DNA from: Pontibacterium granulatum
GTDB taxonomy: Bacteria > Pseudomonadota > Gammaproteobacteria > Pseudomonadales > Balneatricaceae
Assembly: GCF_029961155.1 (NCBI RefSeq)
Contig: NZ_JASBRH010000012.1
Span: forward strand, 1 to 64,000
Reading direction: 5' to 3'
DNA length: 64,000 nucleotides
In this document: piece by piece, positions 18,531-35,331 of the stretch
How positions within the stretch are numbered: the first letter of the stretch is position 1
How the letters are laid out: each line of letters opens with the position of its first letter
Translations under genes and position numbers: made by a program
The notes under the pieces: generated by a model
Seen by the model: the letters and a program-made list of their open reading frames with translations, nothing else
Told to the model about the DNA's origin: nothing
Databases searched by the model: none

Positions 18531-18731
18531 ATGGTAAGTAACGCAGGCTTTTTCAAATTTGCAGTAATCGGTGCGGTTTTAATGGCACTGGTGGCAGGGG
18601 GAGCCGCACTCGAGCCACGTACTCAACTGGCCAGACAGGTGAATGACAGTGGGCTGATGAGAATGATCAACCATCCGGATCCAAACGAACAGAACGAAAT
18701 CGACAGCTTTATATTGAGGATACACACATGA
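18531..18731 (+). CDS. Small hydrophobic-leader protein of unknown function
   Basis: A 66-residue frame encodes MVSNAGFFKFAVIGAVLMAL and then a polar, charged tail. The N-terminal 27 residues look like a signal anchor or uncleaved signal. No known family was recognised. No strong ribosome-binding site precedes the ATG, which lowers confidence. Its stop overlaps the next start (ATGA), so the pair is probably translated together. It lies divergent to the OhrR-type regulator. Confidence 0.55.
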   Translation: MVSNAGFFKFAVIGAVLMALVAGGAALEPRTQLARQVNDSGLMRMINHPDPNEQNEIDSFILRIHT

Positions 18732-18955
18732 AAAACATCGCAACTGTAATCGCCCTGACTTCCGCTATCTTTGCCGGTACTGCATCTGCAGCGGTAGAAT
18801 CCAGCCAGATCAGCCACTTCGGCACCGGTGTTGAGTTTGCAAGCACCTCTCACTACAGCGGTCTGGAGCAGGTGGTGGTAGACAACAGCAACCTGAAAGG
18901 TGGTAATGCGCTGGAGCCGGTATACGGCGCGGACCTGTACTTCGGTTCTAACTAA
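18728..18955 (+). CDS. Small secreted protein of unknown function
   Basis: The 75-residue product begins MKNIATVIALTSAIFAGTAS, a clear Sec signal peptide with likely cleavage after ASA. The mature part is about 53 residues, cysteine-free and rich in Ser, Gly and Asn. TTGAGGA precedes the ATG inside the upstream frame. No domain was recognised. Overlap with the upstream small gene and divergence from the OhrR-like regulator suggest a shared, possibly stress-responsive, unit. Confidence 0.75.
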   Translation: MKNIATVIALTSAIFAGTASAAVESSQISHFGTGVEFASTSHYSGLEQVVVDNSNLKGGNALEPVYGADLYFGSN

Positions 18956-18988
18956 ATCCCTCTTTTCACTGCTCGAGATGCCCATGTT

Positions 18989-19017
18989 AAGCGATCCCTA
19001 TCCGGATCGCTTTTTTA
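18989..19017. terminator. Terminator between the small secreted protein and the LysR gene
   Basis: AAGCGATCC / GGATCGCTT with a 6-base loop and a T-run on the plus strand. It overlaps the last codons of the convergent LysR gene. Confidence 0.85.
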
Positions 19018-19903
19018 TATCTGGCCTCTGGTTAGCGCAGTCTTGAATCCAGCGGATAAAAGCCTGCGTTTTATTGTCCTTTATGCGACTCTCCGGATAG
19101 ACCAGATAGTATGCGTAGTCCGGTAGGGACTGCTCAAATAACCGTACCAGCTCGCCACTTGCCAACTCGTTTTGCAGTAGGCGTGGACACCCCAGCATCA
19201 CGCCCTGGCCATTAATAATGGCTTGTACACGCACATTGGTATCGTCAAAGATCTGACCCCGTGCGGCATCGGTTGGCGGCAGACCGGCCAGTCGAAACCA
19301 GGCCTGCCAGGCGCTGTGATCGCTGTCATGTATGAGATTCAAACCGGAAAGTTGCTGAGGAGTCGTGGGCATACCTTCAGTGACTATCAGCTCGCGGCTA
19401 CAAATGGGGGTGAGGTTGCCGGGAATCAGCATATCCGCTTGCATGCCCGGCCAATGCCCCTTACCCCAGAGAATAGCGACATCGATATTCTCTGAACTAA
19501 AGTCCGGCAATGTACTGCGGTGGATCAGGTCAATCTGAATATCCGGATGTTGCGCCCAGAAGCTTTGTAAACGAGGGGCGAGCCAGGATATGGAGAAAAA
19601 GGGTCGTAACACAATGTATAGATTCTTCGATTTCCGCCCGTTCATCGTTTCTCGCACAGCCTCGGCAATTGATTTGAACGGTCCCTCCAGGTCGCCATAG
19701 AGTTGGTAACCGGCATCGGTGAGAATCATTGTCCGACTGGTACGACTGAACAGTTTTAAACCTAGGTAGTCCTCCAGAATACGTATTTGATGACTGACCG
19801 CAGAAGGGGATACCAACAATTCATCCGCTGCCTTCGTGAAGTTCAGGTATTTTGCCGCAACGACAAAGGTCTTGAGGGCGTTCATAAGGGGGATGTATGC
19901 CAT
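18998..19903 (-). CDS. LysR-type regulator 1 (left edge of the catabolic island)
   Basis: The 301-residue protein has the LTTR helix-turn-helix at residues 9-65 (FTKAADELLVSPSAVSHQIR) followed by a GcvA-like effector domain. An AGGTGG site precedes the ATG. It is the last gene in the leftward cluster after the amidase. It is strikingly similar to the second LysR gene at 31048-31938: by hand count, 48 of the first 58 aligned N-terminal residues are identical, so both may read the same DNA site. The effector is unknown. Confidence 0.92.
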   Translation of the reverse strand: MAYIPLMNALKTFVVAAKYLNFTKAADELLVSPSAVSHQIRILEDYLGLKLFSRTSRTMILTDAGYQLYGDLEGPFKSIAEAVRETMNGRKSKNLYIVLRPFFSISWLAPRLQSFWAQHPDIQIDLIHRSTLPDFSSENIDVAILWGKGHWPGMQADMLIPGNLTPICSRELIVTEGMPTTPQQLSGLNLIHDSDHSAWQAWFRLAGLPPTDAARGQIFDDTNVRVQAIINGQGVMLGCPRLLQNELASGELVRLFEQSLPDYAYYLVYPESRIKDNKTQAFIRWIQDCANQRPDIKKRSG

Positions 19904-19931
19904 TGGTTTCCACCTGTGCGGTCAGTGCAAC

Positions 19932-21215
19932 TCAGTTATGGTGAAAGTGCTCGATCCAGGCGGCGACCGCCAGTAACCGTTCATCATCGTGTGGCCGTCC
20001 AACAAGTTGCAGACCCAACGGCAAACCTTCACTATCCCTGGCGCCGGGCAGATTAATAACCGGTAGCCCCAACGCCTGCCACGGACGACTCATATGGGGT
20101 AGACCGGTGCGCTCGGTACCGAGAGGCGCAACGCCGGGAGCGGAGGGCGCAAGAATCAGATCGGCTTCGGCATGCTGTTTCCACAGCCATACACCGATCT
20201 TGCGGATTGACGCCAGTGCATCAAGGTACTCGGCATAGGAGATCTGATCACCGTGCACCATTAGCTCCCTGAATGGCTCGCTGAGCTGTTCTGGATGAGC
20301 AGCCTCGTAGGCAAGGTTACGACGTGCTTCGAACGCCAGTATTTGATGATGCAGTGCCACCAGTCGTTTGAGCAAATCGCAGCTATGCAGTTGCTGGATT
20401 TCAATACCCTGCACGCGCAGTTCTCGGCTCAATGCAATCAGCGCCTCGGTCATGGCCGGGTCAGTCTCGCCGATGGCGCTACCCAAACAGAGCAAAACCG
20501 ATTTGGGCTTGACCGGCGCAATCGCTGCCGCCGACTGTCCCAGCAACAGGGTCCGCACCAAACTGGCGTCTTGGGCCGAACGGCTCAGAATACCCAACGC
20601 ATCCAGTGACTGAGCCAGGGGCTGGACACCCCGTAATGACAACTCGCCGCGAGTGCAGACGTAGCCGCTGATACCGCAGAAAGCAGCCGGGCGGATTACC
20701 GAGGCAGCTGTTTGCGAACCCAGTGCTAGCGGAACCATTCCGGCGGCCACCGCAGCGGCAGAGCCGCTGGAGGAGCCTCCCGGCGTACGGCGGGGATCGT
20801 GAGGGTTGACCGTATCACCGGGTTTGAAATAGGCAAACTCGGTCGTGACTGTTTTGCCCATGATGATTGCACCTGCCTGTTTCAGACGAACCACGCAGGT
20901 TGCATCATCGTGCGGCCGACGCCCCCGATGGATTGGCGATCCGAGTTCAGTCGGCATCTCGGCCGTATCGATGATGTCCTTGATACCGACCGGCAGCCCT
21001 TTCAGCGGGCTGCGATCGTAGAACGTGCGGTTATCGCGGTATGTTTGTAGAACCTGCTGGCGGCTACGTAGAAACTGCCATGCGTTCAATTCCGCTTCAC
21101 GCTGATCCACCGCGTCAAAGCAAGCGTTGATCAAGGTTTCGGTATCCTGCTCACCCTGCTTGATGGCGGCCAGCATGGCAGACAGACTCCATTGGCTCGG
21201 ATCGGTACTCAGCAT
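19932..21215 (-). CDS. Amidase-signature hydrolase
   Basis: The 427-residue enzyme belongs to the amidase signature family. Lys79 (VGIKD), the cis-serine within GGSSSGS (148-150) and the nucleophile Ser172 in QTAASVIRPAAF make up the Ser-cisSer-Lys triad. The family hydrolyses amide or urea-type bonds; the substrate is not deducible. It is not GatA by context, because gatB and gatC are absent. Its ATG overlaps the stop of the DUF1116 gene by 7 bases, implying coupled translation. Confidence 0.88.
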   Translation of the reverse strand: MLSTDPSQWSLSAMLAAIKQGEQDTETLINACFDAVDQREAELNAWQFLRSRQQVLQTYRDNRTFYDRSPLKGLPVGIKDIIDTAEMPTELGSPIHRGRRPHDDATCVVRLKQAGAIIMGKTVTTEFAYFKPGDTVNPHDPRRTPGGSSSGSAAAVAAGMVPLALGSQTAASVIRPAAFCGISGYVCTRGELSLRGVQPLAQSLDALGILSRSAQDASLVRTLLLGQSAAAIAPVKPKSVLLCLGSAIGETDPAMTEALIALSRELRVQGIEIQQLHSCDLLKRLVALHHQILAFEARRNLAYEAAHPEQLSEPFRELMVHGDQISYAEYLDALASIRKIGVWLWKQHAEADLILAPSAPGVAPLGTERTGLPHMSRPWQALGLPVINLPGARDSEGLPLGLQLVGRPHDDERLLAVAAWIEHFHHN

Positions 21216-22396
21216 AAGCCTGCCTCAGACAAAACGTGTTGGAAGAAGGTTGCCGGAACGTCCACGACACCCCCTCCAATGCGTCCGGCGGTACCGGTCT
21301 GTTCGATCATCCCCAACAGTATCAGTGGCCCTGCAGCCTGGTTCACCACCTGGCGGGCACCTGTTATTACGAGGCGCTCCGGTAGGCGTGCTAGCGCTGC
21401 AGTCAACGCCTTCTTCGGACGGGACAGGGCATCGTCAGGTAAATATGAGCACAAGGCTTCACGGGACGCCGTCGCTGTATTCAGTACCTGGCCACCCAAA
21501 CCCAAAAAGTCCACCACGGCACTGTCACCGATTGCGCCCAGTGCGCGATACCCAGCGAACGCATCGTCGACTGCACCTTTTACTTCCGGTGCAGGCATAC
21601 ATATCCATTGGCCTGGCCGCGCTGCGACCTGTACGCCGAAGCTGACACCGTTGCCGCCGGCGCGGGTAATCAGCGAGCTATTTTCACTGCCTTCGGCCGC
21701 GCTCAACAGTAGGCTGCTGGCGGCCATCCACACGTTCAGAGCAAAGGCGGGTGAGCTGTGCAGAAAGTCACGGATTGCCGCAGGCGCGGCGCTAGCCTGC
21801 ACACCAAGTAGGGTCTCCGCCAATAGTTCAGAACCCACCAGAGTGCGGCCGTGACAGTCGTCGCCGGCTTCAAGTGCTGCGCTGATCATCGGCAGCAGTG
21901 CGATTGGTGCCAACAGCTGATAGCCGAGCCATTCGGCCAATTCACCATTCAGCCAGCGCAGGTGGTCAGGCAAGTCTGGGTCGAGTTTACCCAGCCGTGT
22001 GCAGTGCACCATTCCCTCGTTGATAACGGCATATTTCCGGTGTGTGGGTTGATTGGCGTTGGTCACCACCATCAGCGCCATTGAGGGTGAAGCCACCCCG
22101 GCCAGAGGTACCACGATATCGTGATCCTGAGCCGGCGCAACAGCGATCTCACCGGCCAGGATCGCGTCCCGTGCTTGAGCGTAGTCTTCGGCCCAGCCTT
22201 CATAAATGGCACCGATACAAAGTGAGTTCATCACCGGTGGTGGAATCTGCTCGGCACTGGTAAAGGGTGGTCCGGCATGCAGCAGGAGTTGGTCAGCATG
22301 CAGCAGGACATCGCGTACCCGGCACATACCGCTCCAGCGCGGATCGCAGCGCTTTACTTGCTCAAAAGCTTTCAGATCATCAGTCAGGTTCAGCAT
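21209..22396 (-). CDS. DUF1116 family protein (YlbE/AllG-like), divergent
   Basis: About 395 residues with DUF1116 landmarks: LLLHAGPPF, GAIYEGWAEDYAQA, AGVASPSMALMVV, GDDCHGRTL, and a glycine-rich C-terminal region RIGGGVVDVPATFF. In E. coli the family member YlbE (AllG) works with FdrA and YlbF in oxamate carbamoyltransferase; neither partner is present here. Canonical members, as I recall them, carry RMCGP after the LLHAGPP motif and a PCHHHDAVGP motif. Here these read EQIPPP and PAQDHDIVVP, so the active site may differ. The ATG at 22396 follows AAAGGAGGG; an in-frame ATG at 22432 lacks such a site. Confidence 0.75.
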   Translation of the reverse strand: MLNLTDDLKAFEQVKRCDPRWSGMCRVRDVLLHADQLLLHAGPPFTSAEQIPPPVMNSLCIGAIYEGWAEDYAQARDAILAGEIAVAPAQDHDIVVPLAGVASPSMALMVVTNANQPTHRKYAVINEGMVHCTRLGKLDPDLPDHLRWLNGELAEWLGYQLLAPIALLPMISAALEAGDDCHGRTLVGSELLAETLLGVQASAAPAAIRDFLHSSPAFALNVWMAASSLLLSAAEGSENSSLITRAGGNGVSFGVQVAARPGQWICMPAPEVKGAVDDAFAGYRALGAIGDSAVVDFLGLGGQVLNTATASREALCSYLPDDALSRPKKALTAALARLPERLVITGARQVVNQAAGPLILLGMIEQTGTAGRIGGGVVDVPATFFQHVLSEAGLC

Positions 22397-22447
22397 TGGG
22401 GGCGTTCCCTCCTTTAAATAGAACATCTGCACCAGTCACAGGCGACT

Positions 22448-23059
22448 TCAGTCGGCGCGCACCCAACTTTCACTGTTGGCGAGGGCTGCGGATTGGGCGA
22501 TTCGGTCGAGAAAGTCCCGCTCTACGGTCTGGCCGGTGATTGCCTGACCGTTGATCTCGACACAGGCGCTGCTGGCGGGTTGGAACACACAGAACATTTC
22601 ATGTTCGCCGGTTTGGGTTTCTGCCGGTGGCAGGGCTACCGCGAAGGTGTCCTGAAGGTCTTTCCAAATCATGTCGATCTGAAGGTTATGGCTGTCAGAG
22701 GTGGCGCGCTCGGTAACATGGGCTGGATAGTCGGCCAGAGTTTCGAAGCGGGCGTCCGCCACGTATTCCAGCGTATCCAGTGCCACGGCTGGGCGGAACA
22801 GACCGAAGCGGCGTACGAACTGATCCACCAGATAACGGGCCAGTTCCAGGTTATCGGTCAGGCACAGGCGCACCGCGTTGGTGTCCTCCTTCTGGTAGGG
22901 ATTCTCCAGCACCAATATTGCCTGGCCGCGACCGTAGTCGGAGGCGGCAATGCGGAAATACAGGGAGAGGGACGACCAGTCGCCCTTTGGGTCGGTTTTC
23001 AGATAGATAAACGGGTTATCACCGGTCCAGTCAACTTTGCCAGTACGGATGGAATTCAT
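22448..23059 (-). CDS. Conserved-looking protein of unknown function in the Rieske cluster
   Basis: About 203 residues, MNSIRTGKVDWTGDNPFIYL onward; soluble, no signal peptide or membrane segment. It contains a mixed alpha/beta-looking region with two cysteines in the C-terminal part (MFCVFQPASSACVEI). I do not recognise the family. The ATG at 23059 is preceded by GAGAGATAACCCA; an in-frame GTG at 23074 is also possible. It lies between the SDR and DUF1116 genes in one tight leftward operon, which implies a role in the same pathway. Confidence 0.7.
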   Translation of the reverse strand: MNSIRTGKVDWTGDNPFIYLKTDPKGDWSSLSLYFRIAASDYGRGQAILVLENPYQKEDTNAVRLCLTDNLELARYLVDQFVRRFGLFRPAVALDTLEYVADARFETLADYPAHVTERATSDSHNLQIDMIWKDLQDTFAVALPPAETQTGEHEMFCVFQPASSACVEINGQAITGQTVERDFLDRIAQSAALANSESWVRAD

Positions 23060-23101
23060 TGGGTTATCTCTCACTTAGCGATTTTGTTTTTGTTATGGTG
23101 A

Positions 23102-23977
23102 TCAGCGGTGCGCCTTGGACTTGGCCAGGGCCCGCAGTTGCTCGAAGTTGGACGTCGGTTGCCAGCCCAGCAGTTCTTTCGCTTTGGCACTGCTGAAGAT
23201 CGAGGCACGTGGGTTCTGCTGATATTTGCGCGGATTCTCGATCGGAGGCAGTTCGCCAATGACTTGCCGGTACCAGTCCAGGGTTGGTTGCGGATGCGAT
23301 GTGTCGTCGGCACTGAGGAAGAAAGCGCCGTATTTCAGTCCCTGAAGTTTTACTGCCGCATGGAATGCGGTGGCTACATCTTCGGCGGTTACGTAGTAGA
23401 ACAGCCAGTGACGTTCCGGTGCGTCAACAAAGTCGATGTATTGCTGCAGGGTTTCCTCCAGTACCACGGCCAGCGGACGCAGGCAGATCACCTCCATATC
23501 GAAACCGTCAGCGAAACTTTGCGCCATCTGTTCCATCACGATCTTACTGACGCTGTAGGCCTGGACTGGTTTGTTGGTATGGGTTTCATCCACAGGCAAG
23601 CTCTGTGGTGTCCAGTCCGGTCGCATTTCGGACAGGCCGCAGGCAGAGATGCTGGAACAGAGTACAACTTTCTTGATACCCAGTTCGGAGGCGGCCTGCA
23701 GCACGTGCCAGGTACCGCGGACGTTGACGTCGATGTATTTTTCCGGCTCGCAGGCCCAGTCATAATCCAGTGCCGCCAGATGCACGACGGCATCGGCGCC
23801 CTGCATCGCCTGCCGCAACTGATCCAGCGCCATGACATTGGTTTCCACAAAGTGAGCGTCTGCATCACCGGCAACCAAGTCGGCGATAACCACCTCGTAT
23901 TCGGTTAGTAACTGGCGTACTACATAACGACCCACACGACCGGAACCTCCGGTCACTACTACCCGTTGCTTAGACAT
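23102..23977 (-). CDS. NAD(P)-dependent epimerase/dehydratase (extended SDR)
   Basis: The 291-residue protein has a Rossmann start VVVTGGSGRVGRYVVRQLL and the conserved SDR pieces VVHLAALDYDW, CSSISACG and catalytic Y-x3-K in AYSVSKIVMEQ. Extended SDRs oxidise, reduce or epimerise sugars and related hydroxy compounds. In this operon it probably handles an intermediate alcohol or aldehyde; the substrate is unknown. Confidence 0.85.
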   Translation of the reverse strand: MSKQRVVVTGGSGRVGRYVVRQLLTEYEVVIADLVAGDADAHFVETNVMALDQLRQAMQGADAVVHLAALDYDWACEPEKYIDVNVRGTWHVLQAASELGIKKVVLCSSISACGLSEMRPDWTPQSLPVDETHTNKPVQAYSVSKIVMEQMAQSFADGFDMEVICLRPLAVVLEETLQQYIDFVDAPERHWLFYYVTAEDVATAFHAAVKLQGLKYGAFFLSADDTSHPQPTLDWYRQVIGELPPIENPRKYQQNPRASIFSSAKAKELLGWQPTSNFEQLRALAKSKAHR

Positions 23978-24019
23978 ATAGAACTACCTTAAATAACTGT
24001 TGGAAAAGGGTGGTTGTGC

Positions 24020-25003
24020 TCATAGATCCAGGACTAACTCATCGCTCAGGGCACGCGATACGCAGAGCATCATATAGTCGTTGTCGGCCTTCTCTTCAGG
24101 CGAGAGAACCGCATCGCGATGATCCGGTGTACCGGCCAGAACGCCGGTTTCACAGGAACCGCACACACCGTCACCGCATGAGCTGGGAATTTTGAAACCG
24201 TTTTCACGCAGTACGCTGAGTACAGAACGGCCTTCGGGGATATGCAGGCGCTGTCCGGTGCTGTTAATCACGACATCGAACGCGTTACCGCGAGTATCCA
24301 CATCACCGCCACTGAAGCGCTCGATATGCAGGCTCCATTGATCCTGTGTCGCAGCCATGCCCTCCAGTGCATCAAGCAGCCCTTTTGGGCCGCAGGAGTA
24401 TACGGAGGTATCGGCATCGCATTCGGTCAACAGGGCTGTGAGATCAAGCGGTCCATCTTCGGCATCACCATTGAGACGGATACGGTTACTGTCGTATGCA
24501 GTGAGCCGGTCCAACAGCGACATCCGACTCCGGTCTCGGGCCAGATAGACCAAACGCCAGTCGATCCCTTCTGCATCGGCCTGCTGGATCATCGGCAACA
24601 TCGGCGTGATACCGATACCACCGGCGATGAACAGGACCTTCTTGCGGGGCGCAAACGGGAAAAGGTTACGCGGCTGGGAGACCTGTAGAGTGTCGCCCTC
24701 GCGCAGACCTTTGTGGATGAATCGTGATCCACCACGGCCGCTATCTTCGCGTAATACGGCGACCTGCCACTGTGTCTGATCCCGGTAGTCGCTGCACAGG
24801 GAATACTGGCGCAGCAAAACATCATCGCTAGACGCAGGTGCAGCACCGTTACGGTAAAGAGAGAGGGCCAGCTCAATATGAGAACCCGGTGTCCAGTGGG
24901 GTAAGGGCTGACCGTCTTGGGAGACCAGAGTTAATCCGATCACATCATCGGTTAGTTTCTCCTTACGGGCGACACGCAGCATCAGTCTGTCATCGTTGGA
25001 CAT
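24020..25003 (-). CDS. PDR/VanB-type reductase component of the Rieske oxygenase
   Basis: The 327-residue protein has an FMN-binding domain (RQYSLCSDY), a NAD-binding domain (FIAGGIGITPMLPMI) and a C-terminal plant-type [2Fe-2S] ferredoxin with cysteines in SSCGDGVCGSCETG and a later LCVSRA. This is the domain order of VanB, phthalate dioxygenase reductase and CntB. It passes electrons from NAD(P)H to the oxygenase encoded 119 bases upstream. Confidence 0.92.
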   Translation of the reverse strand: MSNDDRLMLRVARKEKLTDDVIGLTLVSQDGQPLPHWTPGSHIELALSLYRNGAAPASSDDVLLRQYSLCSDYRDQTQWQVAVLREDSGRGGSRFIHKGLREGDTLQVSQPRNLFPFAPRKKVLFIAGGIGITPMLPMIQQADAEGIDWRLVYLARDRSRMSLLDRLTAYDSNRIRLNGDAEDGPLDLTALLTECDADTSVYSCGPKGLLDALEGMAATQDQWSLHIERFSGGDVDTRGNAFDVVINSTGQRLHIPEGRSVLSVLRENGFKIPSSCGDGVCGSCETGVLAGTPDHRDAVLSPEEKADNDYMMLCVSRALSDELVLDL

Positions 25004-25122
25004 AAGACCACCCTTTTAAAATAAGTACGGATATAACGATCCGCATTGTTCTTGTTATAACGGGGCCAACGGCACCTCAGAGGGATAGAAACCCGCTGTG
25101 CCCCGGTGGAGCGGATTCGTGA

Positions 25123-26316
25123 TCAGGCGCCGTCAGCGGCACTGTCTTCAGCGCGATACTTATCGATCAGCCAGTTTTGCAGACGCTGAATCACTTTTTC
25201 GTCGGAGGTCAGACGACCACGGGTTGCATGTTGGGACTGAAAACCCACCTGACAGGAGCGCCAGGCGAAAACATCCTCTTCCATCACCGGCCAGAGGTCG
25301 TCGTGTTCTTTCTGGAAGTTGTCCTGGAAGTCGTCCCGCTGCAGAGTGGATTCTGGATACATCCAGGAAACGCCGTACAACGATGTCTTCGCGCCGGTCG
25401 GCAACCACATGAAGTACTTCACCTTATCCGGCATGGCGACGATCAGCAGGTTGGGTGCAACCGTGACATAGGACAGCTGGGACCGCTCTGCGTCGGTGAG
25501 ACCTTCCATCGCTGGCTGCAGAATGGACCCGGTATGGGTTGGTGCAGCGTCCTTATGGGGGCTGATCAGGTTGTAGGACACCAGTCCCCGGCCTACATCG
25601 TTGAATTTAACTTCCTCGTCAACATTGCTCTGTGGTAGGGGAAACATGTCACCCCAGGATGAGCCGTGCAGGAAAGAACAGTGGTAGCACTCGTCGTTGA
25701 AGATCTTCCAGTTCCAGTCGAACGGTTCCATCTCCAGCGGCTCAGGTGCACGTAACTCGGACATCTTGTAGTTGCGAAGTTGTTCACCCAGATTGCCCAG
25801 GCGGTCGCTCAGTGGTGGCAAGCTTTCATCTTGAGTACAGAAGATAAAACCTTCCCATATCTCCGTACGCAGCTTCGGCAGGCACACATCCTTAACATTG
25901 AACTCCTCGTCGTCCTTGTCGGTCAGGCCCGGTGCGGAGGTTAACTCACCCTGGGTGTTGTAGACCCAGGCGTGTAGCGGACAACGCAAACGGCGGGTAT
26001 TGCCACGCCCCTCGACAATCAGCATGCCGCGGTGCTGGCAGACATTAGACACCACATTGATGGAGCCGCTGCGATCACGGATCACCACCAATGGATCGTC
26101 ACCGACGGTGATGGTGTAGTAGTCACCTGTATCCGGAATATCATTGGCACGACCGACACAGAACCATTCGTGGCTCCATACGGCGTTCATCTCAAACTGA
26201 TAAAAGTCTTCCGAAGTAAAACACTCCGGTGGCAGAGAATATACCGCACCGCCGTCACTGTAACTGGAATCGAATTCAGCAATAGGGATTGGGCTTTTTA
26301 TTGTTTTTTTAGTCAT
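25123..26316 (-). CDS. Rieske non-heme iron oxygenase, large subunit (quaternary-amine type motif)
   Basis: The 397-residue protein binds a Rieske [2Fe-2S] centre through C93-x-H95 and C112-x2-H115 (CQHRG and CPLHAW). The mononuclear iron site is in NDECYHCSFLHG: His212 and His217 with a preceding Glu209. The ECYHC string and Glu at the electron-bridge position resemble GbcA (glycine betaine) and CntA (carnitine) rather than naphthalene-type dioxygenases, where this residue is Asp. Likely chemistry is oxidative C-N cleavage or hydroxylation of an N-alkyl substrate, but the substrate is unknown. An AGGAG site precedes the ATG. First gene of the leftward operon. Confidence 0.9.
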   Translation of the reverse strand: MTKKTIKSPIPIAEFDSSYSDGGAVYSLPPECFTSEDFYQFEMNAVWSHEWFCVGRANDIPDTGDYYTITVGDDPLVVIRDRSGSINVVSNVCQHRGMLIVEGRGNTRRLRCPLHAWVYNTQGELTSAPGLTDKDDEEFNVKDVCLPKLRTEIWEGFIFCTQDESLPPLSDRLGNLGEQLRNYKMSELRAPEPLEMEPFDWNWKIFNDECYHCSFLHGSSWGDMFPLPQSNVDEEVKFNDVGRGLVSYNLISPHKDAAPTHTGSILQPAMEGLTDAERSQLSYVTVAPNLLIVAMPDKVKYFMWLPTGAKTSLYGVSWMYPESTLQRDDFQDNFQKEHDDLWPVMEEDVFAWRSCQVGFQSQHATRGRLTSDEKVIQRLQNWLIDKYRAEDSAADGA

Positions 26317-26650
26317 ACCGCTAAAGCTCCTGCGAAATGTGTTAATAAGTTAATTTGTTTTGATACTGTTTTTTTTGGTTGGCTTTTCAAGGTTGGCTTT
26401 TTAAGCCTCGTTAAAAATGTTCTCAAAAATTTGTGAGTATAAGAACAAAGCAAACTTCAATGTGATGTGAATATTTCTCAAACCTGTATGTACAACAAAG
26501 GCTGGTGGATAACTGTGAATTTATATTCACGTTGAATCTCAGTGAAGCAAGTAAAGCTCAACCAGCTTTGAGGAAAACTAAACATTGTTGATGGCGGGTT
26601 TTTGTACAATAAGATTGCTTAATAGTGTTTGAGATAAAGAGAATAAAAAT
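26317..26650. promoter_or_regulatory. Divergent promoter region between the Rieske operon and the glyoxalase-like gene
   Basis: This AT-rich 334-base gap holds no gene. It contains a perfect palindrome GTGAAT-TTAT-ATTCAC (26515-26530), preceded by AACT. A related AACTGTGA...ATTCAC string occurs at 30811-30829 before the TRAP genes. CTCA-N8-TGAG (CTCAAAAATTTGTGAG) lies farther left. These are candidate LysR operator sites; no clear sigma-70 boxes were assigned. Confidence 0.5.
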
Positions 26651-27061
26651 ATGTCTGAAAATATTAAATTTCGTCTGGATCACACCATGATTCGGGTTGC
26701 CGATCTTGATAAGTCAATCGATTTTTATACCCGGATTATGGGGATGAAAGTGCTGCGTAAAAATGAATATCCAGGTGGACGATTTACCAATGTGTTTGTA
26801 GGGTTCGGGCCGGAAAACGAAACTACAACGTTGGAGCTCACCAATAACTGGGATATTACCGAACCGTATGACAAAGGTGACGCATACGGCCATCTGGCAT
26901 TTAATGTGGATAACGTAGTAGAGGCGATGGCTTACCTGGAAGCAGAAGGTGTCCGCATTAAAAGCCCCGCCAAAGCTATGAATCACGGTACCCGCATGTT
27001 GGGATTTATCTTTGATCCCGATGGTTACGTCATTGAGCTGAACGAACCGCTCAACGGTTAG
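26651..27061 (+). CDS. gloA: Glyoxalase I-like VOC metalloenzyme
   Basis: The 136-residue protein resembles lactoylglutathione lyase (E. coli GloA, 135 residues). The four metal ligands are visible: His in LDHTMIRV, Glu in TLELTNNW, His in AYGHLAFNV and Glu in YVIELNEP. GloA converts the methylglyoxal-glutathione adduct to S-lactoylglutathione. It is the only plus-strand gene in the island and diverges from the Rieske operon. It may be a housekeeping enzyme or may handle a reactive carbonyl from the pathway. Confidence 0.82.
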   Translation: MSENIKFRLDHTMIRVADLDKSIDFYTRIMGMKVLRKNEYPGGRFTNVFVGFGPENETTTLELTNNWDITEPYDKGDAYGHLAFNVDNVVEAMAYLEAEGVRIKSPAKAMNHGTRMLGFIFDPDGYVIELNEPLNG

Positions 27062-27066
27062 TAAAG

Positions 27067-27097
27067 AAAAAGCCAGCCCATCAAGGCTGGCTTTTTT
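27067..27097. terminator. Terminator between the glyoxalase and UspA genes
   Basis: AAAAAGCCAGCC / GGCTGGCTTTTTT with a CATCAA loop, lying between two convergent stops; usable in both directions. Confidence 0.92.
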
Positions 27098-27116
27098 ATA
27101 CCCGGATCCACAGAGA

Positions 27117-27614
27117 CTACTGCGGATAGTCCTTGCCGGTTGGCACGACATAGACCGGAACACGACTGCGCTTGATCACTTTTTGCGTGGTATGACTCTG
27201 GCTGTGCAGACCCAGTTTATGTTCGGTCCCCATTACAATCAGGTCTACCTCCTGCTCCCTGGCAACCCGCAGGATCGCTTCATCGTGTTCGCCTTCCACC
27301 ACCATCGGTGTTACCTGAACGGCGTTGTCCGTACCCAGGTCATACAGCTCCTCATCGAAGAAAAGCTGGACACGGGCGCGCATCTGCTCGGTGATCTTAT
27401 TGATGCCTTCGTTCTGCACCTGCTTGACCAGTGCGGCTGGCAGATACTGACGAATCAACGCTTCGCCCAGCTCGCCTACAGGACTCATGACATGCAGCAT
27501 GATCAGCTCGGCGCTGTTCTGCTGTGCCATCTGAATCGCGTGACGGTACACCGCGCGGGTATAAGGGCCCAGCGAAGTTGTATAAAGAATCTTGTTTATA
27601 TCTGGAAGACTCAT
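27117..27614 (-). CDS. Universal stress protein of the TRAP operon (TeaD-like)
   Basis: The 165-residue product is a single UspA domain: start INKILYTTSLGPYTRAVYRH, nucleotide-binding region VDLIVMGTEHKLGLHSQSHT and end RSRVPVYVVPTG. It is the last gene of the TRAP operon. In Halomonas, TeaD occupies the same place in teaABCD and binds ATP to tune ectoine import. The ATG at 27614 gives a normal Usp start; upstream in-frame codons fall in intergenic-looking sequence. Confidence 0.88.
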   Translation of the reverse strand: MSLPDINKILYTTSLGPYTRAVYRHAIQMAQQNSAELIMLHVMSPVGELGEALIRQYLPAALVKQVQNEGINKITEQMRARVQLFFDEELYDLGTDNAVQVTPMVVEGEHDEAILRVAREQEVDLIVMGTEHKLGLHSQSHTTQKVIKRSRVPVYVVPTGKDYPQ

Positions 27615-27640
27615 AGCAATACCTGTTATCCGGTTGTGGT

Positions 27641-28945
27641 TTACATCATGTTTGGCAGCACGAGTACAACCTGCGGGAACAGGCTGATGATTACGACGGC
27701 GATACACATCAGGATAAAGAACGGAAACGCCGCCTGGACCACCCGTCCGATTGATTGCCCGGTCAGTCCCTGCAGGATAAACAGGTTGAAACCTACCGGC
27801 GGTGTCATCTGTGCCAGCTCAACCATCAGTACCAGAAATACGCCGTACCAGATTGGATCGAATCCGGCTTGCAGAATCAGTGGTAGCGTTATCGGCAGGC
27901 TCATCACGATGATGGAGATACCATCCAGGAAGAAACCGAGCAGGATATAAAAAGCGGCCAGAATCAGCAGCAGTCCATATGGAGACAACGCCATGCTTTC
28001 GATCAGTGTCACCAGCTGTACCGGAATATGCAGATAGCCGATGGCGGTGGATAAAAAGGCTGCCGACACCAGTATTGAGCACACCATACAGGAGGTTTTT
28101 ACCGCGCCCATCGCCGCTTCAATGACGATATCCCATGAGAAGCTTCCCATCAGAATGATTAGCACGAAAGTGGCCATTACCCCTACGGCTGCAGCTTCCG
28201 ATGGTGTGGCGATACCGCTGTAAATTCCCCCCAGCACAAGCACGATGAGGGTGACAATCGGCAGCAAATCTTTCAGCCCGGACAGGCATTGCTGCAGGCT
28301 GATACGTTCATCGGACGCCGGTGCCAGCTGAGGGCTCATTACGCAACGAACGATGATGTAAGAGGAGTACAAAAAAGCAACCAGCAAGCCCGGCATGATG
28401 CCGGCGGCAAACAGTTTGGAGATCGAAACCTCTGCCAGAACACCGTAGATGATCATGACGATGGACGGAGGGATCAACAGGCCAAGGCTACCGGCACCTG
28501 CGAGAGAGCCCACGGACAGGGCATTGTTATAACTGCGCTCAGCCAGGGCTGTTGTGGTGATCTTGCCAACGGTTGCTGTGGTGGCCGAAGTGGATCCGCT
28601 GACGGCGGCAAACAGGGTGCAGCCGAGCACGTTAGTATGCAGCAGGCGCCCCGGCATCCATTGCACCAACGGTGACAGTCCGCGGAACAGACGGTCTGAG
28701 ATATCGGTACGGAAGATGATCTCTCCCATCCAGATAAACAGCGGAATGGCGGACAGCTCCCAGGCGCTGGCACTGCGCCAGACAACCGAACGGGCGATAA
28801 AACCGATTCGATCGATGGAGAAGTCCGCGATAAAAAACAGGCTGCTAATCGCAACAAGAAACAGGCCGACAAACACCCAGGTTCCCAGTCCGAGAAACAG
28901 TATGATCAGGGCCAGCATAAGGCCCATATGCATTAAAACATCCAT
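27641..28945 (-). CDS. TRAP transporter large permease (DctM type)
   Basis: The 434-residue protein is strongly hydrophobic with about 12 membrane segments. It has DctM family pieces such as LFAAVSGSTSATTATVGKIT, AGSLGLLIPPSIVMIIYGVL and PSEAAAVGVMATFV. It forms the ion-coupled channel for substrate delivered by the periplasmic DctP. Ten bases separate it from the upstream DctQ gene. Confidence 0.95.
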   Translation of the reverse strand: MDVLMHMGLMLALIILFLGLGTWVFVGLFLVAISSLFFIADFSIDRIGFIARSVVWRSASAWELSAIPLFIWMGEIIFRTDISDRLFRGLSPLVQWMPGRLLHTNVLGCTLFAAVSGSTSATTATVGKITTTALAERSYNNALSVGSLAGAGSLGLLIPPSIVMIIYGVLAEVSISKLFAAGIMPGLLVAFLYSSYIIVRCVMSPQLAPASDERISLQQCLSGLKDLLPIVTLIVLVLGGIYSGIATPSEAAAVGVMATFVLIILMGSFSWDIVIEAAMGAVKTSCMVCSILVSAAFLSTAIGYLHIPVQLVTLIESMALSPYGLLLILAAFYILLGFFLDGISIIVMSLPITLPLILQAGFDPIWYGVFLVLMVELAQMTPPVGFNLFILQGLTGQSIGRVVQAAFPFFILMCIAVVIISLFPQVVLVLPNMM

Positions 28946-28955
28946 AACTCACCCA

Positions 28956-29504
28956 TTACTCTTCTGCGGTTTCGGCATTTAAACTGTAACCCGCCATAAT
29001 CTTGACGATGTAGGACAGCATCTGAATGATGAAAATTGCCAGACCCAGCAAGACAAACGCTTCCGGAATCCATAACGGCACGGCAGCAATGGTTTCGCTG
29101 GTGGACCCCCGCTCCCAATTACGAAGCACGGTGCGCCAGAAATAGTTGGCCAGATAACAGGTCAGGCCAAAGGCCGCGAGCACGCACAGCATCTCAACGA
29201 AACGGCGCATCAGTTGCGTCCGGATCTTGGCCAACAGAATATTTACCCGGATCAACGCACTGGTTTCGAAGGCGTATCCGAGCGACAGGAAGGTCATGGC
29301 GGCAACGCCGTAACCGACAAATTCATCCAGAACAAAGGTTGAAGTACTGAAAAAAGCGCGCAAGCTGATTTCCAGCATCACGTGCAAAGTCATTGCGGCC
29401 ATGATCAATGCCGCCAGCACCGCACCCGAACGTGACAACCAGGAGGCGAGACAGATAAAGCCATCGACCATCCTGCGAAGCAAAGATGGAGTACTCTCGT
29501 TCAT
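28956..29504 (-). CDS. TRAP transporter small permease (DctQ type)
   Basis: The 182-residue protein has four hydrophobic segments and the DctQ pattern (VMLEISLRAFFSTSTFVLDE, then VLLGLAIFIIQMLSYIVK). It pairs with the DctM subunit in the inner membrane. A stable hairpin lies between it and the binding-protein gene upstream. Confidence 0.92.
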   Translation of the reverse strand: MNESTPSLLRRMVDGFICLASWLSRSGAVLAALIMAAMTLHVMLEISLRAFFSTSTFVLDEFVGYGVAAMTFLSLGYAFETSALIRVNILLAKIRTQLMRRFVEMLCVLAAFGLTCYLANYFWRTVLRNWERGSTSETIAAVPLWIPEAFVLLGLAIFIIQMLSYIVKIMAGYSLNAETAEE

Positions 29505-29608
29505 AAGCTACACCGGAATTATCGTTATTGTTGTTTCTGTGGCTGAGATATCAGCAGAGCGCCGCTATATCCGCTCACCAGCATAGTGATCATTGCTGAT
29601 CGGTAGGT

Positions 29609-29632
29609 GGACCGGGCTAAAACGCCCGGTCC
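29609..29632 (-). promoter_or_regulatory. Intercistronic hairpin between DctP and DctQ genes
   Basis: GGACCGGGC and GCCCGGTCC form a perfect 9-bp stem with a 6-base loop and no T-run. Such structures commonly stabilise the upstream binding-protein message, giving more DctP than permease. Confidence 0.65.
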
Positions 29633-29685
29633 TGCAGTCACTTCAGGCAGTACCTGAAACATCGGACTGCACTTTGAGGTTGTGG

Positions 29686-30690
29686 TTAATGGGATTTCGC
29701 CAATGCGGCACGATACTGCTCGAGCAGTTCTTCGCCTTGAGGCCCCATTTTTTCCATCCATTCAGCCACGACAGCACTTGCCGCTTGTTTGAGTTCGGAT
29801 CTGAAGTTGGCGGGTACATCTTCCACCACTGTCATGCCCCGTTGACGGGCCAGGGCATAGTTCTCCTGCACGACATTGCTGGTGTTGCTCCAGACATGTT
29901 TCTCCGCTTCCTGGGCTGCTTCTGAAACGGCCTGCTGCATCTCTGGAGACAAACCGTTCCAAACATCCAGGTTCATAGTGACCAGGTTGATGGTGCTGTC
30001 GTAGTTCAGCGCAGTGAAGTGGGAAACGTAATCGTTAAAACTGGCGCTCAGACCGGCTTCGATAGACGTCAGTACGCCATCAATACCCCCGGTGGAGAGC
30101 TGCGGCACGATGTCGGCCCAGCTGAGCTGGATCGGCGCAGAGCCTGCGCTTTTGAATACCTTGGTGCCGTTGGCATCGTAGGTACGCATCTTCAGGTTGT
30201 TGATAGCGCCATTGTCTGTCAGTGCGCGTTTACCCCAAAGGCCGCTCGAAGGCCACGGAGAGGAATACAGCAGTTTCTGGTTATATTTGGCCAGCACCTT
30301 CTCGTAGTAAGGTTTGGCGACTACGTATAAGGTATGCGCTTCTTCGGTGTTGGAGCTTAGGAACGGCAGAGAGGAGAGCAGGAAAATCGGGTCAACACCA
30401 CCCAGAGGAGGAATAAAGGTATTGGCCAGTACGACTGCCCCATCACCTACCGCATCCAGTTGGTCCTTGGACTTCAGGCCCAACGCCCCGCCAAAGTGGT
30501 GAGCGATCTCAATTTCACCCTTGGATTTTTCTTTCAGCAACCCTGCAAAATATTTATCACCTTCTCCCTGAACTGAAGTTGCCGGATATTCATTCGGCAT
30601 ATCCCATACGGTTGCAGCGTTGGCTGGCAGTGTGTGGGCCGCAGTTAGCAGGGCGGTGAGACCCAACGTCATACTTATTTTTTTAATCAT
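29686..30690 (-). CDS. TRAP transporter periplasmic binding protein (DctP type)
   Basis: The 334-residue protein begins with a signal peptide (MIKKISMTLGLTALLTAAHT, cleavage near ANA-ATV). It contains the DctP hallmark region NLKMRTYDANG ... SWADIVPQLSTGGIDGVLTS, where the arginine usually clamps a substrate carboxylate. The substrate is therefore probably a carboxylate. Its gene is first in the leftward TRAP operon. Confidence 0.93.
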   Translation of the reverse strand: MIKKISMTLGLTALLTAAHTLPANAATVWDMPNEYPATSVQGEGDKYFAGLLKEKSKGEIEIAHHFGGALGLKSKDQLDAVGDGAVVLANTFIPPLGGVDPIFLLSSLPFLSSNTEEAHTLYVVAKPYYEKVLAKYNQKLLYSSPWPSSGLWGKRALTDNGAINNLKMRTYDANGTKVFKSAGSAPIQLSWADIVPQLSTGGIDGVLTSIEAGLSASFNDYVSHFTALNYDSTINLVTMNLDVWNGLSPEMQQAVSEAAQEAEKHVWSNTSNVVQENYALARQRGMTVVEDVPANFRSELKQAASAVVAEWMEKMGPQGEELLEQYRAALAKSH

Positions 30691-31047
30691 TGTCTTATCC
30701 CAGGTTGTAATCTGATTATTGTTATTGCGTTTGCAACAAAGGATTGTTTGTTTAGATCCAGATCAATCATGTCACAATTTATTTTGCTGACCATGAAGCG
30801 CTTCTCAAGGAACTGTGAGCTGGATTCACAAACTCTCTGGGATGGTGGGTTTTATGAAATATTTAAGAACTTCTGAGAAGGTATTCTGAGTTCGAATAGT
30901 TATTGCAAATGCATTGAAAAATAAGAGATTAATGGGTTTGTTATCGATTAACCCGAATAGGACACTCTGATTTAAGTGTCGGTTTTAAAAGCAGGCGGTT
31001 TATGTCACCCGCTGAGGTGACAATTAAAACTTGATATCGGACAAGGA
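30691..31047. promoter_or_regulatory. Upstream region of the TRAP operon
   Basis: This 357-base AT-rich gap holds no gene. It contains AACTGTGA-N5-ATTCAC (30811-30829), similar to the palindrome before the Rieske operon. Two hairpins lie near the LysR2 end: GACACT/AGTGTC (30961-30980) and TGTCACC-CGCTGA-GGTGACA (31003-31022). The left part probably carries the dctP promoter; the hairpins may end the upstream LysR transcript. Confidence 0.5.
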
Positions 31048-31938
31048 TTATTCATAACGCTCGGACTCGGATGTTTGCTTGATCCACTGTACGAAGGTGG
31101 CGATGCGCTGAGTATCCTTATGGCTTTTGGGATACGCCAGGTGATAAGAGTATGTATCCAGACAGGTATCAAAAAGCTGTATCAGGCGACCGCTACTGAA
31201 TTCATTTTTTAATAAGGCGGGACAACCCAGCATGACGCCCTGACCGTTCAGCACGGCCTGCAGGCGTACGTTTGTGTCGTCAATGATCAGGCTGGTTGGT
31301 GTGTTGAGCTGCGTCACTCCCGCTTTGCGCAGCCAGTCGTCCCAGGCGGAATGGTCCTCATCATGGATCAGGGTGAATTTCTGCAGGTCTTGCGGTGATT
31401 CAACAGGTCCGACCCGGTGCAGCAGGTCGGTGCTGCAGACAGGTGTCAGGTTGCCCGGGATCAGTAGTTCGCTCTCCAGATCCGGCCAGTTGCCTTTGCC
31501 CCAGATGATAGCCAGATCGATGTTGTCTGCCAGGAAGTCGGGGACTTTGATGGTATGCATCAGATCGATCTGGATATCCGGATGCTGTCCCCAGAAGCTG
31601 CTCAGACGCTGAGCCAGCCAGGCACTGGAAAAGAATGGACGCAGCGCAATATTCAGTGAGTCTCTGCCGCGGTGTTGCACCACATCCTGAATCGCACGCG
31701 CGATCTGGTCAAAGGGGCCTTCAAGTGCTGAGTGCAGGTGTTTGCCCTCTGGCGTGAGGATTAAGGTGCGTTTCTGGCGCAAAAACAGCTTTAAGCCCAG
31801 ATAATCTTCGAGCACACGGATTTGATGGCTTACGGCGGATGGCGATACCAACAACTCTTCCGCCGCTTTGGTGAAGTTCAGGTAATGGCCCGCTACAACA
31901 AATGTTTTTAAAGCATTCAGCAAAGGCAGATGTAGCAT
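31048..31938 (-). CDS. LysR-type regulator 2 (right edge of the catabolic island)
   Basis: The 296-residue protein has an LTTR helix-turn-helix (FTKAAEELLVSPSAVSHQIR) and a GcvA-like effector domain with DDTNVRLQAVLNGQGVMLGC. It is a close paralogue of the regulator at 18998-19903 throughout its length. It precedes the TRAP operon on the same strand and probably controls transport or the whole island. Confidence 0.92.
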   Translation of the reverse strand: MLHLPLLNALKTFVVAGHYLNFTKAAEELLVSPSAVSHQIRVLEDYLGLKLFLRQKRTLILTPEGKHLHSALEGPFDQIARAIQDVVQHRGRDSLNIALRPFFSSAWLAQRLSSFWGQHPDIQIDLMHTIKVPDFLADNIDLAIIWGKGNWPDLESELLIPGNLTPVCSTDLLHRVGPVESPQDLQKFTLIHDEDHSAWDDWLRKAGVTQLNTPTSLIIDDTNVRLQAVLNGQGVMLGCPALLKNEFSSGRLIQLFDTCLDTYSYHLAYPKSHKDTQRIATFVQWIKQTSESERYE

Positions 31939-33256: not shown

Positions 33257-33754
33257 ATGACTACACACGCTTTCGATGAGCAGCGCGAGCAACGTGTGGT
33301 CGGTATCATCGCCGAGCTGAAAGACAAGCCCGGTGCACTGCTGCCGATCCTGCACGGAATTCAGGACAGTGAGGGTTACATTCCTGAAAGCTCAGTCGCT
33401 ATGATCGCCGCTGAACTGAACCTGTCACGGGCCGAGGTACACGGTGTAATCAGCTTCTACCACCACTTCCGTACTACCCCACCAGGCCGTCATGTGATGC
33501 AGGTTTGCGTTGCCGAGGCATGCCAGGCGCGTGGCTCCCGCGAGCTGGAGAGTTACGCCCAGGAAAAGCTGGGTGTGGGTTTCCACCAAACCACGTCTGA
33601 CCGCGAAATCACCCTGGAGAAGGTGTACTGCCTGGGCAACTGTGCCTGCGGACCTTCCGTGCGTGTGGATGACGACATCGTTGGTCGTGTCAGCAATGCG
33701 CGTTTCGACGAACTGGTTGAAGAGCTCACCACCCAGACCGTGGAGTTGAAGTGA
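33257..33754 (+). CDS. fdsG: NAD-dependent formate dehydrogenase gamma subunit
   Basis: The 165-residue product is NuoE-like (thioredoxin-fold [2Fe-2S] protein). Cluster cysteines are CVAEAC and [10 protein letters not shown]. It works with FdsB to pass electrons to NAD+. Its TGA overlaps the fdsB ATG (TGATG). Confidence 0.95.
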
Positions 33755-35331
33755 TGGTTAAAGTATTTATTCCGCGTGATACCACATCGCTGGCGCTGGG
33801 TGCCGATAAGGTGGCCCGTGAATTTGCGGTGGCTGCTGAGCAGCGTGGTGACAGTGTAGAGATCGTGCGTAACGGTTCCCGTGGTCTGTTCTGGCTCGAG
33901 CCGATGCTGGAGGTGGAAACCCCGGCCGGTCGCGTGGCGTACGGTCCGGTGACTCATGCCGATATCGACAGCCTGCTGGAGCAGGGGGTGTTGCAGGGCG
34001 AACAGGGTCACCCGCTAAGCCTGGGGCTGACCGAAGAGATCCCGTACCTGAAAAAACAGCAGCGCCTGACCTTTGCCCGTGCCGGTATTACCGATCCGGT
34101 ATCGCTGGACGACTATCAGGCACACGACGGCTTTAAAGGCCTGCGCAATGCACTGCAGATGGATGCCCAGGCGATTGTGGATGCGGTGAAAGCCTCCGGC
34201 CTGCGTGGTCGTGGTGGTGCGGCATTCCCTACCGGCATCAAATGGCAGACCGTACTGGATGCAGTGCCAACCGATGCTGTTAACGGTGAGAGTGGCCAGA
34301 AATACATCGTCTGTAACGCCGACGAGGGTGACTCCGGGACCTTTGCCGACCGTATGGTGATGGAAGCCGATCCGTACATGTTGATCGAAGGCATGACCAT
34401 CGCCGGTCTCGCCGTGGGTGCGACTCAGGGTTACATCTACCTGCGCTCCGAATACCCGGTGGCACACCAGATCCTGAACGAAGCGATCGCCAAAGCAGAA
34501 GCGGCCGGTTTCCTGGGTAACGATATCCTCGGTAGCGGCCGACGCTTTGACCTGGAAGTTCGTCTGGGGGCTGAAGCGTACATCTGTGGCGAAGAGACCT
34601 CCCTGCTGGAGAGCCTGGAAGGTAAGCGGGGTCTGGTGCGCGCCAAGCCGCCGCTGCCAGCTATTGTGGGTCTGTTTGGTCAGCCAACCGTCGTGAACAA
34701 CGTGCTGTCTCTGGCGGCGATCCCGTACATTCTGGACAAAGGCCCGCAGGCTTATGCCGACTACGGTATGGGGCGCTCTCTGGGGACCCTGCCGTTCCAG
34801 CTGGCGGGCAACATCAAGCAGGGTGGTTTGATTGAACTGGCGTTTGGTCTGACCCTGCGTGAACTGATGGAAGATTTTGGTGCCGGTACCTTCTCCGGAC
34901 GCCCGGCGCGTGCGGTACAGGTGGGTGGCCCGTTGGGTGCCTACCTGCCGGAAAGCCAGTGGGATACGCCGCTGGACTACGAGGCCTTTTCTGCCATGGG
35001 GGCGGTATTGGGTCACGGTGGTGTGGTGGTGTTTGATGACACTGTGGATATGTCTGCGCAGGCGCGTTTCTCCATGGAGTTTTGCGTGGCGGAGTCCTGC
35101 GGTAAATGTACCCCGTGCCGTATCGGTTCCACCCGTGGCGTGGAGGTGATCGACCGCATCCGCAACAACGAAAACCGCGAAGCCAACCTGGAGTTGCTGA
35201 CCGATCTGTGTGACACCATGATCGACGGCTCCCTCTGTGCGATGGGCGGCATGACCCCGTTCCCGGTGATGAGTGCCGTGAAGCACTTCCCGGAAGATTT
35301 TGAACCTCAGACTGCTGAAGGAGGTGCCTGA
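33754..35331 (+). CDS. fdsB: NAD-dependent formate dehydrogenase beta subunit
   Basis: The 525-residue product is NuoF-like with a thioredoxin-like N-terminal extension. FMN/NAD-binding segments are GLRGRGGAAFPTGIKW and NADEGDSGTFADR. The [4Fe-4S] site is CGKCTPCRIGSTRG with a later Cys in DGSLCAMGG. It transfers electrons to NAD+ in the cytoplasm. The ATG at 33754 is used; a GTG one codon upstream is also in frame. Overlaps fdsA by one base. Confidence 0.95.
   Translation: MVKVFIPRDTTSLALGADKVAREFAVAAEQRGDSVEIVRNGSRGLFWLEPMLEVETPAGRVAYGPVTHADIDSLLEQGVLQGEQGHPLSLGLTEEIPYLKKQQRLTFARAGITDPVSLDDYQAHDGFKGLRNALQMDAQAIVDAVKASGLRGRGGAAFPTGIKWQTVLDAVPTDAVNGESGQKYIVCNADEGDSGTFADRMVMEADPYMLIEGMTIAGLAVGATQGYIYLRSEYPVAHQILNEAIAKAEAAGFLGNDILGSGRRFDLEVRLGAEAYICGEETSLLESLEGKRGLVRAKPPLPAIVGLFGQPTVVNNVLSLAAIPYILDKGPQAYADYGMGRSLGTLPFQLAGNIKQGGLIELAFGLTLRELMEDFGAGTFSGRPARAVQVGGPLGAYLPESQWDTPLDYEAFSAMGAVLGHGGVVVFDDTVDMSAQARFSMEFCVAESCGKCTPCRIGSTRGVEVIDRIRNNENREANLELLTDLCDTMIDGSLCAMGGMTPFPVMSAVKHFPEDFEPQTAEGGA

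Follow-up and report, generated by a model that had tools for sequence, protein, structure and literature searches.

What does an operon that joins a Rieske oxygenase to a DUF1116 protein and an amidase break down? The question is raised by a gene block between two LysR regulators in 64,000 nucleotides of Pontibacterium granulatum (contig NZ_JASBRH010000012.1, positions 1 to 64,000), a stretch that we call the window. An initial annotation had described there an operon for a Rieske oxygenase, a PDR/VanB-type reductase, a short-chain dehydrogenase/reductase (SDR), a 203-residue protein (here U208), a DUF1116 protein and an amidase, together with a divergent glyoxalase gene, TRAP P-Q-M-Usp genes and a pair of LysR regulators. 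Reading frames and family matches bear out this gene set, with the strands and order given there. The genes form a conserved catabolic operon that comes with a transporter of its own and is under LysR control. On balance, we favour the reading that it imports and oxidises a small N-heterocyclic carboxylate and then hydrolyses an amide, with release of formate.

An operon conserved across distantly related bacteria

Using an alignment of U208 alone, we gathered 24 loci in named genomes. All six enzymes stand in identical order at 16 of them (L011, L012, L014-L020, L022-L024, L026-L029), which span three proteobacterial classes; in L020 a glyoxalase-family gene is interposed between AllG, as the DUF1116 family is now titled, and the amidase. 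Contig ends cut three further loci (L013, L021, L025). In Mycobacterium (L030) five enzymes keep their order and the amidase lies a few kb off on the opposite strand, and the last four loci (L031-L034) are a variant carrying another Rieske type. The first twenty loci belong to Amphritea, Oceanimonas, Marinobacter, Denitrificimonas, Paracoccus, Pseudogemmobacter, Alcaligenes, Paenalcaligenes, Advenella, a Burkholderiales bacterium and Mycobacterium; in Paracoccus aminovorans the operon is on plasmid IV. Rieske, DUF1116 and amidase genes thus co-occur across genomes. Six enzymes kept in order at 16 of 24 loci in three classes are more than a chance grouping: the neighbouring genes form a real conserved unit across distantly related bacteria.

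The accessory genes travel with this unit to varying extents. The full block with TRAP, Usp and glyoxalase genes is found again in two relatives (L007, L009), both from one other genus, the L007 genome sharing its genus code with two Amphritea contigs. All nine gammaproteobacterial loci of the window's type have the divergent glyoxalase gene, and eight of them also have the TRAP-Usp genes; the position of Usp after DctM is conserved. A glyoxalase-family gene also lies near the operon in L019, L020, L022-L024, L026 and L028, not in L027. The Mycobacterium locus has a DJ-1/PfpI gene ahead of the Rieske gene, while Marinobacter L017 and Denitrificimonas L029 have in common an extra gene 3' of the amidase, whose product in L029 is PrpB/PEP-mutase-like. 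Within the window's own family the distribution is patchy, with U208 in 4 of 143 other relatives and in none of four listed same-genus genomes.

The block in the window is composed as follows.

18998-19903, minus strand: LysR_A, a GcvA-type regulator (NF008352 GcvA, 294 bits against a cut-off of 288)
19932-21215, minus strand: amidase-signature enzyme, malonamidase-E2-like (PF01425; best PDB match 1ock)
21209-22432, minus strand: AllG-like protein (DUF1116), whose start is probably near 22396 (PF06545, 182.7 bits, cut-off 27)
22448-23059, minus strand: U208, 203 residues from the conserved start used here (raw open reading frame 208 residues)
23102-23977, minus strand: extended SDR of the NAD-dependent epimerase/dehydratase type (PF01370, 100.7 bits)
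24020-25003, minus strand: PDR/VanB-type reductase with a C-terminal 2Fe-2S ferredoxin domain (PF00111)
25123-26316, minus strand: Rieske non-heme iron oxygenase alpha subunit (PF00355, PF00848)
26651-27061, plus strand: glyoxalase I (lactoylglutathione lyase), divergent (TIGR00068, 129.7 bits against a cut-off of 120)
27117-27611, minus strand: universal stress protein, Usp (PF00582), 164 residues from the start used (raw open reading frame 196 residues)
27641-28945, minus strand: TRAP large permease DctM (PF06808; TIGR00786 above cut-off)
28956-29504, minus strand: TRAP small permease DctQ (PF04290)
29686-30690, minus strand: TRAP solute-binding protein DctP (PF03480)
31048-31938, minus strand: LysR_B, a paralogue of LysR_A (PF00126, PF03466)
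33257-33754, 33751-35331 and 35331-38213, plus strand: NAD-type formate dehydrogenase genes adjoining the block (PF01257, PF01512 and PF10589 in the first two genes)

The two regulators are 57% identical over 291 residues. The end of the AllG-like gene overlaps the start of the amidase gene by 7 bases, and 28 bases separate the amidase stop from the LysR_A start on the same strand; LysR_A is therefore probably the last gene of the Rieske operon and cotranscribed with it. A 120-residue frame without a Pfam match (18623-18985) lies between a MarR gene and LysR_A.

An AllG-like protein outside oxamic transcarbamylase

The DUF1116 protein belongs to PF06545, a family now titled AllG, 'oxamate carbamoyltransferase subunit'. 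It matches PDB entry 3clq with 131 bits and E. coli YlbE with 27.9% identity. In E. coli, oxamic transcarbamylase (OXTCase) is described as requiring allF, allG and allH, pairs of which restore 7-16% of the activity; AllG is there part of an enzyme whose substrates are oxalurate and oxamate (PMC11326118).

Is the window protein such a subunit? We searched 22 carrier genomes for its partners. AllH is absent from the window's own genome and from all 21 others. An AllF query finds matches in 21 of the 22, none above 34.5 bits, at 20-30% identity and over less than one third of the query; these are presumably succinyl-CoA synthetase. As a positive control, all four E. coli-like AllG loci, from three Rhodobacterales genomes, adjoin AllF and AllK, and two of them also AllH. 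None of the three genes stands beside any of the 32 loci of the other AllG clade, some of which are on short contigs, nor beside any of 14 further AllG loci. In two trees, the second made of part of the rows of the first plus new ones, the oxidase-linked AllGs split from the E. coli type with support of 100/100 and 100/99. The branch that separates them from OXTCase AllG measures about 2 changes per column in the first tree and about 1 in the second, where L162 sits between the oxidase-linked and E. coli sides. With AllH absent, AllF weak and partial, and the clade separate, we reject membership of OXTCase. The window protein shares AllG homology with the AllFGH system of the E. coli allantoin pathway; unlike it, it has no adjoining AllF, AllH or AllK and sits in a deep separate clade tied to ring oxidases.

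Gene context follows this tree closely, requiring 8 changes for 8 groups where the minimum possible is 7. Type A, that of the window, forms one supported group with a Rhodococcus ruber pair nested inside. Type B (Azoarcus, Paraburkholderia, Variovorax, Marinobacterium) combines a Liv-type ABC transporter with a VanA-like Rieske oxygenase, and type C (Ruegeria and others) has the order aldehyde dehydrogenase-Rieske-(U208)-AllG-amidase; each is one supported group. Type D, which splits into two groups, has a molybdenum hydroxylase, mostly with an amidohydrolase. Loci of types A to D pair a ring oxidase with an amide hydrolase, save for contig cuts, the R. ruber pair, which has no annotated amidase, and L161, which holds only a RutB-like hydrolase. 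Of 367 alphaproteobacterial genomes drawn evenly, 33 have an AllG match; ten of the 12 AllG loci read from these, picked among the better scores, have one of the Rieske or molybdenum hydroxylase types just described.

The R. ruber MSA14 pair lies on a plasmid (L036:2282-17559), where two AllG-like genes flank a formate dehydrogenase operon in a cluster that also holds Rieske, reductase, aldo/keto reductase and malate synthase G genes. Type D loci L109, L110, L039, L119 and L154-L161 carry AllG-like proteins with hydroxylases of the xanthine dehydrogenase type, mostly accompanied by amidohydrolase, HpxZ or PhyH.

AllG and HpxZ are both tied to oxalurate, and this is the origin of another explanation: the AllG-like protein and the amidase might cleave an N-oxalyl (oxamate-type) amide that results from oxidative cleavage of the ring, and so yield oxalate first and formate next. 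HpxZ occurs with an amidase in three type D loci (L039, L119, L157), the one in L039 being annotated as an oxalurate catabolism protein, and the E. coli AllG enzyme acts on both oxalurate and oxamate according to the same source (PMC11326118). Against this stand the distance of the AllG-like clade from OXTCase AllG and the lack of an oxalate enzyme among the neighbour proteins scanned, in a survey that included no search aimed at such enzymes. We consider this route unlikely.

Oxygenase, reductase, SDR and amidase

The oxygenase retains its metal ligands. The cluster residues C93-x-H95 and C112-xx-H115 and the iron-site residues D208, H212 and H217 are invariant in 19 aligned sequences (L013 omitted), and D348 is what we take to be the carboxylate iron ligand. 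No beta-subunit gene adjoins it. Its best curated model is GbcA (NF058607), at 123.5 bits against a cut-off of 670; the best PDB match is CntA by family profile, over the N-terminal half only, and benzene dioxygenase by single sequence. With GbcA (glycine betaine) and CntA (carnitine), Rieske monooxygenases of quaternary ammonium acids, it shares the Rieske domain and iron ligands, a separate reductase and the lack of a beta-subunit gene; it differs in lying far under the GbcA cut-off and in matching CntA over half its length. On a Mesorhizobium sp. AR02 plasmid, a Rieske relative (53%) is annotated as two frames (L038:9986-11812), with a short reductase gene and an adjoining Tn3 transposase.

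The reductase homologue in P. aminovorans is likewise annotated PDR/VanB. PDB matches of the SDR are mostly GalE-like, with one uronate dehydrogenase.

The amidase aligns with malonamidase E2 (1ock) over residues 21-422 with 223 bits. K79, S148/S149, S172 and R175, the arginine of an SVIRP motif, are invariant in the 21 amidases aligned; of the 26 collected, those of L015, L018, L023, L032 and L039 were left out. In malonamidase E2, R158 is presumably the carboxylate-binding arginine. The window enzyme is a distant homologue of malonamidase E2, with a nearly full-length match that retains the catalytic lysine and serines and the SVIRP arginine.

The pyrimidine-degrading Rut pathway opens with a flavin oxygenase, and its families differ from those of the window operon. 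The logic would be alike, with an oxygenase, an amide hydrolase, a RidA-like step and a dehydrogenase; among the operon genes that were scanned, no match to a Rut family appears.

U208, a protein without a family name

U208 matches no Pfam or NCBIfam family. Its AlphaFold model is of high confidence (pLDDT 93.8, pTM 0.90), and the best Foldseek match is 25-phosphosteroid lyase (E 5.8e-3, TM 0.38), with AttH and Fsa2 lower in the ranking; none reaches an E-value of 0.001. The model hints at a barrel related to these three proteins. We also considered U208 as a Rieske beta subunit, which is unsupported: the fold matches are weak, with phosphosteroid lyase first, and the variant loci L031-L034 have a different Rieske partner.

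Distant homologues of U208 occur in 32 of 399 Burkholderiales genomes, a count that includes the Alcaligenes centre. AllG adjoins none of the 20 Burkholderiales U208 loci read (L074-L093), so U208 is a wider family.

Transport and proposed pathway

The solved sequences nearest to the window DctP are 2pfy (125.5 bits, first), 6wgm and 2pfz (third by E-value). We take 2pfy to be Bordetella DctP7 and 2pfz to be DctP6. On this identification, the window protein would be nearest to putative 5-oxoproline-binding receptors, which agrees with the ring-amide carboxylate suggested by the initial annotation. DctP6 and DctP7 of Bordetella are described as 5-oxoproline receptors (PMC5812351, PMC13274462), and those of B. 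pertussis as solved with 5-oxoproline, with a dissociation constant (KD) of 0.3 uM for DctP7 (PMC13274462). R169 of DctP is invariant in 9 aligned sequences (L013, L007 and L009 omitted). Together with the invariant SVIRP arginine of the amidase, it upholds the carboxylated substrate that the DctP arginine had first suggested.

The product side is approached through the neighbours. In the window and in L164 (next to L007, with the same arrangement), formate dehydrogenase genes stand beside the operon, as they do, on its opposite side, in Denitrificimonas L029; they also lie inside the R. ruber AllG cluster. These neighbours suggest formate as a product, and so does a formamidase gene divergent to the type C operon of L152. 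In L094, likewise of type C, RidA overlaps the amidase by 4 bases, an overlap that suggests that the type C product is an enamine or imine.

From these elements we infer a substrate class, an order of steps, roles for U208 and the AllG-like protein, and formate as a product. The TRAP system would take up the ring acid. The Rieske oxygenase and its PDR reductase would oxygenate the ring adjacent to nitrogen, and the SDR would oxidise the resulting alcohol or hemiaminal. The ring would then be opened, with U208 and the AllG-like protein perhaps acting on an oxygenated or amide intermediate, and the carboxylate-recognising amidase would hydrolyse the amide that is left. Formate would be released from a one-carbon unit at the formyl level, to be oxidised by formate dehydrogenase, and glyoxalase I could remove or use an alpha-oxoaldehyde by-product. 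The most likely candidate is a ring acid about as large as 5-oxoproline, either a lactam or a heteroaromatic; the probability of any single named compound is much lower than that of the substrate class.

Several observations weigh against this reading. Formate dehydrogenase genes were not found in the stretches examined for L165 and L166, nor seen at most other loci in the DNA examined. A Pfam scan recognises no known ring-cleaving enzyme in the operon. Two of the 12 alphaproteobacterial AllG loci (L153, L162) have no recognised ring oxidase, and the type D amidase of L039 has a motif other than SVIRP. The match of DctP to the 2pfy/2pfz group is distant. MFS genes replace TRAP in Alcaligenaceae loci (as judged from scans of a single protein for each of two kinds), and an ABC system does so in P. 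aminovorans, which limits the DctP lead to the gammaproteobacterial loci and L019. Lastly, the Rieske and DctP promoters of nine genomes show no operator motif in common: compared with 6-10 simple shuffles per genome, the best 17-base match between the two never exceeds the best shuffle (9 of 9), and we reject such an operator.

The replaced transporters and the missing operator motif would also fit a mixed block, in which the Rieske and TRAP operons serve different substrates and came to be adjacent by chance acquisition. Yet in eight of the nine gammaproteobacterial loci of type A the TRAP-Usp genes accompany the operon, each time separated from it by the glyoxalase gene, and a block of this mixed kind seems to us quite improbable.

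Alternative substrates suggested by other clusters

The initial annotation had proposed uptake followed by oxidative and hydrolytic breakdown of a substrate that might be N-alkylated. The conserved unit of uptake and catabolism, the oxidation and the amide hydrolysis all find support. An N-alkyl substrate whose N-methyl amino acid passes through a sarcosine oxidase or N-methylglutamate dehydrogenase (Mgd) step does not find it as a general rule, since 10 of the 22 carriers show no full-length SoxA-family protein, two Marinobacter among them without any match.

This gap bears directly on homarine (N-methylpicolinate), or on an N-methyl pyridine betaine close to it, as a substrate that would be oxygenated by the Rieske enzyme, lose C6 as formate through N-formyl hydrolysis and yield N-methylglutamate. 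We considered this substrate first because of habitat: several carriers belong to marine genera. The Ruegeria conchae type C cluster lies near a sarcosine-oxidase-like heterotetramer, and the window's genome and 11 other carriers do have full-length SoxA-family proteins, among which sarcosine oxidase and Mgd are not distinguished. Homarine is described as a ubiquitous marine metabolite in whose catabolism Mgd is involved (PMC13390433). The idea is weakened by the SoxA gap and by rarity where it should be frequent: in the Rhodobacterales, an order in which the homarine operon is common, 5 of 390 genomes hold U208 and 10 of 292 hold AllG. Alcaligenaceae also carry the operon. We therefore judge homarine an unlikely substrate for it.

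Like homarine, an imidazole-type acid comes to mind from neighbours in other cluster types. Ruegeria-type clusters (L037:4285-20792, L094-L097) contain a DoeB-like deacylase, an aldehyde dehydrogenase, a VanA-like Rieske oxygenase, two tandem U208 genes, AllG and an amidase, with a divergent HisC-like aminotransferase and, in L037, an annotated two-part decarboxylase. RidA and sarcosine-oxidase-like genes follow, the latter not being seen in L094. Divergent to the type C operons of two alphaproteobacterial genomes are a frame matching Acetamidase/Formamidase (L152:2941-4266) and a second, similarly placed frame (L151:5992-7329).

In such a scheme, an acid such as imidazoleacetate would be oxidised to an imidazolone, its ring opened and the product hydrolysed to an N-formyl or N-formimino amino acid, which would give formate or formamide. 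The aminotransferase, decarboxylase, aldehyde dehydrogenase and DoeB/aspartoacylase-like deacylase, paired in Ruegeria type C with Rieske, AllG and amidase, fit it, as does the formamidase of L152. However, the type C Rieske oxygenase differs from that of the window, the HisC-like (241 against 276.6 bits) and DoeB-like (208 against 402.7 bits) proteins both fall under their cut-offs, and no HutF- or HutG-like protein is found among the 20 window proteins scanned. A search of open-licence PMC for histamine and imidazoleacetate returned nothing useful. We think it improbable that the window operon degrades an imidazole-type acid.

Discussion

An oxidative and hydrolytic pathway for a small N-heterocyclic carboxylate remains the reading that we favour. 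A wider proposal is more tentative, and we put it at clearly less than an even chance: AllG-like proteins would be a new stand-alone enzyme family, separate from oxamic transcarbamylase, that cleaves an amide or imide after ring oxidation, in at least four kinds of operon (at least two Rieske types and a molybdenum-hydroxylase type), and the window operon with U208 would be an undescribed oxidative pathway of N-heterocycle ring opening.

The initial annotation knew no described pathway with this gene set, and the open-licence papers of PMC give no reason to differ: none there combines DUF1116 and Rieske, and none of the six on DUF1116 or PF06545 concerns such a pathway by its title. A 2026 paper on the homarine pathway (cited in PMC13390433) lies outside that scope; its pathway might overlap with this work, most likely with type C.

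As two of its proteins have no assigned function, the operon may represent a degradation route that is new to the literature. As a target it is well delimited, with six genes that are conserved in three proteobacterial classes and also in an actinobacterium; their products include one protein without a family name and one labelled 'oxamate carbamoyltransferase subunit' although its partner subunits were not found. Identifying the substrate would correct the AllG label across the clade and give U208 a function. It would also add a route by which bacteria of marine, wastewater and manure habitats recycle nitrogen from ring compounds.

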